From the NCBI RefSeq assembly GCF_012027305.1, contig NZ_SNUF01000001.1, forward strand, positions 806,001 to 870,000: DNA of 64,000 nt, in the 5' to 3' direction. This DNA is from Thermococcus sp. MAR1. Lineage in GTDB: Archaea; Methanobacteriota_B; Thermococci; Thermococcales; Thermococcaceae. Below are positions 3,854 through 38,661 of this stretch, in pieces. How positions within the stretch are numbered: the first letter of the stretch is position 1; the number at the start of each line of letters is the position of its first letter. A program made the translations under genes and the position numbers. The notes beneath the pieces were generated by a model. It was given only the letters and a program-made list of their open reading frames with translations. It did no database searches and was not told the DNA's origin.

Positions 3854-3911
3854 GCCCTCGGCGATAGCTGGTTTCATCATGCCTCAGACCCGAAACCGCT
3901 CGTCATCGGGC
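3854..3911 (-). ncRNA. C/D box guide sRNA, dual 23S rRNA guides
   Basis: Read on the minus strand: stem GCCC (3911-3908), C box ATGACGA (3906-3900), 12-nt guide GCGGTTTCGGGT, D' CTGA (3887-3884), GGC spacer, C' ATGATGA (3880-3874), 12-nt guide AACCAGCTATCG, D box CCGA (3861-3858), stem GGGC (3857-3854). GCCC/GGGC closes a kink-turn. Guide 1 is complementary to ACCCGAAACC, guide 2 to CGATAGCTGGTT, both conserved 23S rRNA segments I recall from domain II. The D+5 rule would place 2'-O-methylation on the G of ACCCG and the second A of GATAG. A TATA box GTTTATAAAC lies about 25 bases upstream. Targets are from memory, not alignment. Confidence 0.82.
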
Positions 3912-37175: not shown

Positions 37176-37904
37176 ATGGGAGTTGAAAAGGTTCCGAAGT
37201 ACGACATTCCGACCAAGAAGGTTGACTACGTTTTTATCGAACTCGACAAGATGAAGCCCCACGAGCAGCTCGTTCAGAAGGAGCTTGAGGCCTTCATCGA
37301 GAGCGTTACCGGTAGTGGAATCTTCTGGAAGCCCATGCTCCTTGCCAAGGTTCCCGGTGAGGACATGTACCTCATCGTTGACGGCCACCACCGCTGGGCC
37401 GGTCTCCAGAAGCTCGGTGCCAAGAAGGCCCCCTCCGTTATACTCGACTACTTCAGCGACGACGTCAAGGTTTACACCTGGTATCCGGCCTTCAAGGGAA
37501 GCCTTGAGGAGGTTCTTGAGAGGCTTAAGAAGGAAGGCCTCGAAGTCATCGAGGACCCCAATGCTGAGGAGAAGGCCGAGAGGGGCGAGATAGCATTTGC
37601 CCTCGTCGGCGAGAAGAGCTTTGCCATACCCGGAGGCCTTGATGAGCAGAAGAAGGTCAGCAAGGTTCTCGACGAGATGAGCGTCGAGGGTAAAATCGAG
37701 CTCATCTACTACGGCCTCAAGGAGGACGCCAGAGAGGATATGGCAAAGGGTGAAATCGACTACGTCTTCATCAGGAAGGCCCCGAGCAAGGAAGAGGTTA
37801 TGGAGCTCGTCAAGCGCGGCGAGGTCTACTCCCCGAAGACCACCAGGCACGTCCTGCCCTTCAACCCGGACAAGATCGACGTCAAGCTTGAGGAGCTGTT
37901 CTGA
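37176..37904 (+). CDS. serK: ADP-dependent L-serine kinase SerK
   Basis: 242 residues from ATG 37176, with GGAGGT at 37164-37169; in-frame ATG 37170 directly abuts that site and is rejected. VEKVPKYDIPTKKVDYVFIEL, EKVTG-like ESVTGSGIFWKPMLLAKVP and IVDGHHRWAGLQKLG carry the ParB/Srx-like fold and catalytic residues. Length and sequence agree with the T. kodakarensis enzyme that phosphorylates free serine with ADP on the way to cysteine. The C-terminus VLPFNPDKIDVKLEELF is also family-typical. Confidence 0.96.
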   Translation: MGVEKVPKYDIPTKKVDYVFIELDKMKPHEQLVQKELEAFIESVTGSGIFWKPMLLAKVPGEDMYLIVDGHHRWAGLQKLGAKKAPSVILDYFSDDVKVYTWYPAFKGSLEEVLERLKKEGLEVIEDPNAEEKAERGEIAFALVGEKSFAIPGGLDEQKKVSKVLDEMSVEGKIELIYYGLKEDAREDMAKGEIDYVFIRKAPSKEEVMELVKRGEVYSPKTTRHVLPFNPDKIDVKLEELF

Positions 37905-37907
37905 AAC

Positions 37908-37916
37908 CTTTTAACC
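37908..37916 (+). promoter_or_regulatory. TATA box for the second C/D box sRNA
   Basis: CCTTTTAAC, about 25 bases before the sRNA 5' stem at 37936. The same transcript would continue into the HAD gene. Confidence 0.55.
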
Positions 37917-37935
37917 TCTTTTCCCTACTTTCTAC

Positions 37936-37992
37936 GCCGATGACGAGGGATCAACCGGCTGAAGGATGATGACCAGTCCAGGAGGCCGAGGC
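37936..37992 (+). ncRNA. C/D box guide sRNA, guide against the 16S rRNA 5' end
   Basis: Stem GCC (37936-37938), bulge G, C box ATGACGA (37940-37946), 12-nt guide GGGATCAACCGG, D' CTGA (37959-37962), AGG, C' ATGATGA (37966-37972), 13-nt guide CCAGTCCAGGAGG, D box CCGA (37986-37989), stem GGC (37990-37992). GCC/GGC closes a kink-turn like that of the sRNA at 3854-3911. Guide 1 is complementary to CCGGTTGATCC, the start of archaeal 16S rRNA; D+5 would target the first U of GGUUGAU. No target is recognised for guide 2, which contains the HAD gene's GGAGG. The RNA ends exactly at the HAD start codon. Confidence 0.78.
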
Positions 37993-38661
37993 ATGCTCAA
38001 GGGATTGATATTCGACGTTGATGAGACCCTGGTTTACTATGAGGGTTACAATCACAGGGAATGGTACGAGAAGTGGGTTATGCCCGCCCTTCAAGAGCGG
38101 GGCATCGAGCTGGACTACGAGACATACAGAAAGACGGTAACCGGTGAACTGCCAAGGAGCTACGTGAAGCGGTTCGGGATAGACCACGTGGAGTTATGGA
38201 AGATCATTGACGGTGTGAACCTCCGCTACCGGAGGGAAATGGCGCGGCTCGGCAGGATAAAGCCGTTCCCCGATGTTGGTGCGCTGGGAGAACTGAAAAA
38301 GATGGGTCTGAGGCTGGCCGCGGTGAGCAACGCTTCCCAGGAGTGCACGGAGTTCGTTCTGAGCCTCTTTGGCCTGGAGAAGTATTTCAACGTTGTGTAC
38401 GGCAAGGACTACTCCAACCTTGACGGCGTCAAGCCAAGCCCCTACCTCGTTGAAAAGGCCCTGAAGACGCTCGGTCTGAAACCCAGAGAGACTATGATGG
38501 TAGGCGACAGTCATCATGACGTGCTCGCAGGAAAGCGCGCCGGCATGAAGGTGGTTAACGTAACGCGCTTTGGTGAAATTGATGGTGCCGACTACTACGT
38601 GAACGACCTGTGGGAGCTTGTGGGATTGATAAGAAAAATTTTGGGGACTCAATCCCCGTAG
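37993..38661 (+). CDS. HAD-family phosphatase
   Basis: 222 residues from ATG 37993 (MLKGLIFDVDET), GGAGG at 37981-37985; upstream in-frame ATG 37966 lies inside the sRNA C' box. Motif I FDVDET, motif II VSNAS, a Lys in KPSPYLVEKAL and motif IV GDSHHDVLAGKRAG are all present, with an alpha-helical cap in between (EWYEKWVMPALQERG). Hydrolyses a small phosphorylated metabolite; substrate unknown. Its leader overlaps the C/D sRNA. Confidence 0.88.
   Translation: MLKGLIFDVDETLVYYEGYNHREWYEKWVMPALQERGIELDYETYRKTVTGELPRSYVKRFGIDHVELWKIIDGVNLRYRREMARLGRIKPFPDVGALGELKKMGLRLAAVSNASQECTEFVLSLFGLEKYFNVVYGKDYSNLDGVKPSPYLVEKALKTLGLKPRETMMVGDSHHDVLAGKRAGMKVVNVTRFGEIDGADYYVNDLWELVGLIRKILGTQSP

Follow-up and report, generated by a model that had tools for sequence, protein, structure and literature searches.

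We analysed a 64,000-nucleotide stretch of the Thermococcus sp. MAR1 genome, hereafter the window. It carries a C/D box sRNA, supported by its box architecture, a covariance model and ortholog mapping, between the genes of a serine kinase and a HAD-family hydrolase. The features are the following.

37176..37904, + strand: serK (ADP-dependent L-serine kinase), the upstream neighbour (NCBIfam NF053625, 411 bits)
37909..37914, + strand: TATA element of the sRNA promoter, TTTTAA; the sRNA model has its 5' limit 26 nt further downstream, at 37935
37936..37992, + strand: C/D box sRNA, its terminal stem included
37936..37938, + strand: 5' strand of the terminal stem, GCC
37940..37946, + strand: box C, ATGACGA
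37947..37958, + strand: guide 1 (D' guide), GGGATCAACCGG, 12 nt, complementary to 16S nt 4-15, with U8 at N+5
37959..37962, + strand: box D', CTGA
37966..37972, + strand: box C', ATGATGA
37973..37985, + strand: guide 2 (D guide), CCAGTCCAGGAGG
37981..37985, + strand: GGAGG within guide 2, the Shine-Dalgarno sequence of the HAD gene, 7 nt 5' of its ATG
37986..37989, + strand: box D, CCGA, giving C.C instead of U.U with box C
37990..37992, + strand: 3' strand of the terminal stem, GGC
37993..38661, + strand: HAD-family hydrolase gene, ATG at 37993 immediately after the sRNA, start backed by relatives

The original prediction had read this segment as a C/D box sRNA, and every element that it named was found in place. 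Boxes C, D', C' and D follow each other in order with a D'-C' spacer of 3 nt and guides of about 12 nt, as in C/D sRNAs; boxes C and D are each one base off. The GCC/GGC stem, a 3-nt bulge and intact tandem G.A pairs would together form a terminal k-turn. The full C-guide-D'-C'-guide-D architecture occurs twice in the window and never in 60 Markov-1 copies of it. The other occurrence is Rfam sR28 (3856-3910, - strand, 54.7 bits), whose boxes C and D likewise read ATGACGA and CCGA.

At position 3b.3n of the k-turn (37944/37987) the window has C.C, Pyrococcus has U.U, and other relatives have A-U, C.U or G.U; in copies of the T. kodakarensis type the C.C pair sits in C'/D' instead. Two of six independent pairs are concordant and none is discordant, so that as a proof of structure this covariation is suggestive only.

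Guide 1 pairs with 16S nt 4-15 at 12 of 12 positions, 11 of them Watson-Crick and one G·U. Its score against 16S is 11.3, while the maximum among 60 shuffles is 10.3, and the next-best site in rRNA or tRNA offers only 7 bp. The predicted match to the 16S 5' end and the position of U8 are thus confirmed; the guide had been described as an exact complement of 11 nt, and it is 12 nt long with one G·U pair. According to the structure line that Rfam gives for 16S, helix 1 consists of nt 4-8 with nt 16-20, and its loop is nt 9-15. We take this loop to include also the 5' strand of the central pseudoknot. A C-to-T variant of the guide, GGATTAACCGG, retains the pairing as U.G. Guide 1 abuts a good D' box and its N+5 pair is regular, which is what a methylation guide should show. 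The 3.2 A map of the P. abyssi 30S subunit lists Am373 and Cm1376 as its only ribose methylations, with no Um8, at a resolution that may miss others.

With at most two mismatches, the guide-1 module is found in about 77 genomes, all of them Thermococcaceae, and in none of 21 other genomes of the phylum sample (control 0). A covariance model built from 17 relatives likewise finds the sRNA across Thermococcaceae with guide 1 essentially unchanged. Lack of conservation had been named beforehand as a possible refutation; the boxes and guide 1 are conserved in related genomes, and this conservation is independent of the flanking genes.

The model hit at 316132-316189 in genome G011 coincides with T. 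kodakarensis sR15, which is Tko-sR16 (316130-316191), and a second G011 locus also agrees with published T. kodakarensis coordinates (832368-832425 against 832364-832425). Tko-sR16 is 62 nt long, with 1,629,229 small-RNA reads and 698 circular reads, and the circular form is lost in an RNA-ligase knock-out (PMC9014305). It shares guide 1, the box order and the position after serK with the window copy. However, its guide 2 is CATCGGTCTTGT, with 16S G454 as predicted target, and the HAD gene lies elsewhere, so there is no start-codon junction. That the window RNA too would be an abundant, circular species is carried over from this relative.

The same comparison bears on the ends of the RNA. It had been proposed to end one base before the HAD start, and the stem does end at 37992; the mature end, by homology with T. 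kodakarensis, is placed at about 37995 instead. Judged from the ends mapped in that species, with a mapping tolerance of +/-5 nt, the mature RNA probably reaches about 2-3 nt beyond each stem (about 37933-37995) and thus includes the AUG.

In Rfam the best match of the window copy is sR14 (RF01145). Its score of 34.1 bits is below the gathering cut-off of 38, owing to the replaced guide 2; the cut-off is exceeded by the orthologs in Pyrococcus, T. kodakarensis and g14. The boxes are the same as in sR14 and guide 1 is similar, but the consensus guide 1 of sR14 is one base shorter.

Several relatives show changes in the sRNA itself. In two genomes (G018, L017; G028, L018) it has been lost naturally with serK and HAD retained, indicating that the sRNA is dispensable; in G018 this natural deletion leaves HAD 46 nt after serK with a GGTGG of its own. 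Genome G021 (L008, 1539-1596) has a decayed copy with box D CCGG, an altered guide 1 (GAGGTCAACCGG) and an altered C' box, in which HAD still abuts and GGAGG is kept. In six Thermococcus genomes (L095, L096, L097, L098, L103, L104) the D'-C' spacer is enlarged and measures about 19-21 nt instead of 3, and most of them have a G+C-rich hairpin there, such as ACCGCG-CTT-CGCGGT. The hairpin would make the usual k-loop a full k-turn, as in the engineered P. furiosus sR26.

In most of 78 genomes a TATA element (TTTTTAA) lies 26-30 nt before the start of the sRNA model. Its distance to the sRNA is constant while the distance to serK varies from 34 to 65 nt, or serK is missing. As the element is kept with or without adjacent serK or HAD, the sRNA is an independent gene with its own promoter. 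From the position of the TATA element, transcription in the window would start close to the sRNA 5' end. Between the sRNA and HAD, the window has no space for a promoter.

The HAD start is backed by an in-frame TGA, contained in box D CTGA, just upstream in several genomes. An alternative start at the ATG of the C' box (37966) was rejected, since these relatives have the in-frame stop in between. GGAGG inside guide 2 had been proposed as the ribosome site, and its spacing to the ATG agrees with this. It lies directly 5' of box D, which places the k-turn next to the Shine-Dalgarno sequence.

HAD directly abuts the sRNA in 23 genomes. In the others it is 7, 10, 17 or 41 nt off, separated from the sRNA by an inserted gene (about 540 nt), or at another genomic location, and on the serK tree there are 14 changes of the adjacency state. 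The junction with the HAD ATG is lineage-specific, being confined to a subset of Thermococcus. In six of the non-abutting loci (L012, L013, L015, L016, L034, L035) a conserved stretch, CACCTACATA..CACTTACAAAAAAGG, with a TATA-like element comes after the sRNA; it is probably the promoter or operator of the next gene.

The end of guide 2 varies with this junction. It is GG, as part of GGAGG, in 22 of the 22 abutting genomes that could be parsed. In contrast, among ten non-abutting genomes with the same guide-2 core, only three have GG, and the other seven have AA, AT, GA or TA. For this association Fisher's test gives p = 3.6e-5, a value weakened by kinship and the small number of independent events; on well-supported branches there are only two independent contrasts, both concordant or neutral. 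Such covariation is predicted by use as a Shine-Dalgarno sequence, while a role as guide does not require it.

As a guide, the window version of guide 2 is, judged from its sequence, an orphan. It has no convincing target in 16S, 23S, tRNA, SRP RNA or RNase P RNA, the best matches being no better than those of shuffled guides, and no match in the 5' ETS. A bulged pairing of 6+3 bp at 16S 749-757 was equalled in 13 of 40 shuffles and was rejected. In none of the 15 loci scanned for 10-mer complements of guide 2 in the genome is there an RNA gene at the site. Conservation as coding sequence was also rejected, as the core, CAGTCCAGGA, which is common to abutting and non-abutting genomes, is kept without HAD behind it. 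In general guide 2 is labile, with at least six versions and nine changes on the serK tree; for CATCGGYCTTG and for the version of g13 the indicated site is 16S nt 441-461. The D guide of P. furiosus sR26 (CGGAGGUGAUC) shows complementarity to the 16S rRNA 3' end with its anti-Shine-Dalgarno sequence (PMC7089733), which means that a guide bearing GGAGG can face the 16S 3' tail.

From the boxes, the guide match and their conservation, the promoter, the abutment, the Shine-Dalgarno position and the restricted end of guide 2, all read from the genomes, we consider it probable that the locus is an sRNA gene under a promoter of its own, that its 3' module also serves HAD as leader and Shine-Dalgarno sequence, and that sRNP assembly and translation would be mutually exclusive. 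Protein binding, methylation and this exclusion are steps that we infer. L7Ae, Nop5 and fibrillarin would assemble on the two k-turn motifs, and the D' guide would pair with its 16S site, leading to 2'-O-methylation of U8 and keeping both helix 1 and the 5' pseudoknot strand open during early 30S assembly. The sRNP proteins and the ribosome would compete for the same 57 nt of one primary transcript. Assembly of the sRNP and trimming to the sRNA would destroy the HAD leader, and probably its AUG too, while a full transcript that is translated would serve as HAD mRNA. HAD could also be translated from an mRNA that reads through from serK.

There are precedents for parts of this arrangement. Among the snoRNAs of T. 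kodakarensis, 11 are located in 5' UTRs and another 12 within 5' coding regions (PMC4247193). According to Tripp 2017, as summarised in PMC7994747, 7% of archaeal C/D genes overlap the 5' end of a gene, lowering downstream expression. Like the window sRNA, these genes share DNA with the gene behind them, and cases in which the start codon comes after box D have been described (PMC7994747, PMC4247193). What is new here is not the overlap but the placement of the Shine-Dalgarno sequence within a guide, and the covariation of the guide end with abutment across many species. Another precedent is the leader of l7ae, where L7Ae binds a k-turn in its own 5' UTR and masking of the Shine-Dalgarno sequence has been proposed (PMC5539422). 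Both have a k-turn beside the Shine-Dalgarno sequence; however, the l7ae leader contains only one k-turn and does not act as a guide RNA, and HAD, unlike L7Ae, is not part of the sRNP.

The junction could also be a neutral by-product of genome compaction. The sRNA would then be an ordinary guide gene, with GGAGG in use but neither regulation nor selection for the overlap, a reading to which we give somewhat less than an even chance. Of the archaeal C/D sRNA genes, most lie close against a gene end or overlap it, and their processing needs the boxes only (PMC7994747); the HAD distance is also freely variable, and adjacency has changed many times on the serK tree. However, the invariable GGAGG of the abutting genomes suggests that at least its use as a Shine-Dalgarno sequence is selected, and lack of space for a separate HAD promoter makes a coupling of the two products hard to avoid.

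Guide 1 is not restricted to Thermococcaceae. A search of 84,980 genomes for a 23-base pattern of box, guide 1 and box gave 50 matches, where about one is expected by chance; every match is archaeal, and 32 of the 50 are outside Thermococcaceae. Within one mismatch it is found in 13 of 121 sampled genomes of the phylum of G060 (control 0). This phylum is GTDB Thermoproteota, as judged from the Methanomethylicota hit that it contains; an Rfam search of the Thermoproteota versions gave no match. Their partner guides are mostly aimed at the 16S core: at nt 504-516 in Desulfurococcaceae and Pyrodictium, at nt 760-769 in Wolframiiraptor, where the guide resembles the Pyrococcus partner guide, and at nt 847-856 (h27) in others.

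The combination of an h27 and an h1 guide occurs in 10 genomes from seven Thermoproteota families (control 0), at loci L281-L291 (G132, G140, G176, G225, G237, G250, G274, G333, G347, G363). These dual-guide C/D sRNAs, of the form TTCAGCCTTnn-CTGA...GGATCAACCG, would pair with both of the SSU sites that U3 uses in eukaryotes. There U3 base-pairs with 18S rRNA, at H1 and H27, and holds back the central pseudoknot (PMC9196750). Like box A/A' of U3, guide 1 belongs to a C/D box RNA directed at the SSU rRNA 5' end, on h1 and the central pseudoknot strand. U3, however, does not methylate there; it has further pairings, with H27 and the 5' ETS, and a domain structure of its own. The window sRNA is predicted to share the pairing with the SSU rRNA 5' end; pairing with h27 is absent from its version and present in the Thermoproteota sRNAs.

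Guide 1 might serve mainly as a U3-like chaperone in the folding of the 16S 5' end and not as a methylation guide, a reading that we find unlikely. It does cover the 5' strand and loop of h1, where U3 binds (H1; PMC9196750), and in the seven Thermoproteota families the second guide pairs with h27. On the other hand, the good D' box and the regular N+5 pair fit methylation, and the second guide of the window does not reach h27.

Even less probable, to the point of being very unlikely, is that the element is mainly a cis-regulatory, L7Ae-responsive k-turn leader of HAD that has ceased to work as methylation guide in this lineage. The l7ae-like arrangement, the orphan guide 2 and the G021 copy, which still abuts HAD with its decayed box D, are consistent with this. 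But guide 1 and box D' are equally conserved in abutting and non-abutting genomes, promoter and terminal stem are kept, and the ortholog is an abundant small RNA. An artefact of the archaeal 16S forward primer was dismissed, as the motif lies in closed genomes and within a box architecture.

Returning to the sRNA that doubles as leader, a wider picture can be drawn, although it is rather doubtful. Archaea would have U3-like C/D sRNAs, with a GGATCAACCGG guide on h1 and the central pseudoknot and often a second guide on the 16S core (h27 in the seven Thermoproteota families), that time pseudoknot formation; one Thermococcus lineage would have given up the partner guide and turned it into a ribosome binding site, which would link a metabolic phosphatase with 30S assembly. 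By analogy an archaeal RNA may act like U3, or the two may have converged on an accessible site. No description of a U3-like archaeal RNA was found in the literature searched; the specialist papers on Pyrococcus and Pyrobaculum sRNAs lie outside that search, and an earlier description is possible.

The close relatives form a comparative series, with the sRNA and HAD fused, near, separated by an insertion, moved or with the sRNA lost, from which one can measure how a guide RNA affects the gene that follows it. More generally, a guide that recurs in two archaeal phyla matches the rRNA segment that is guarded by U3 in eukaryotes.
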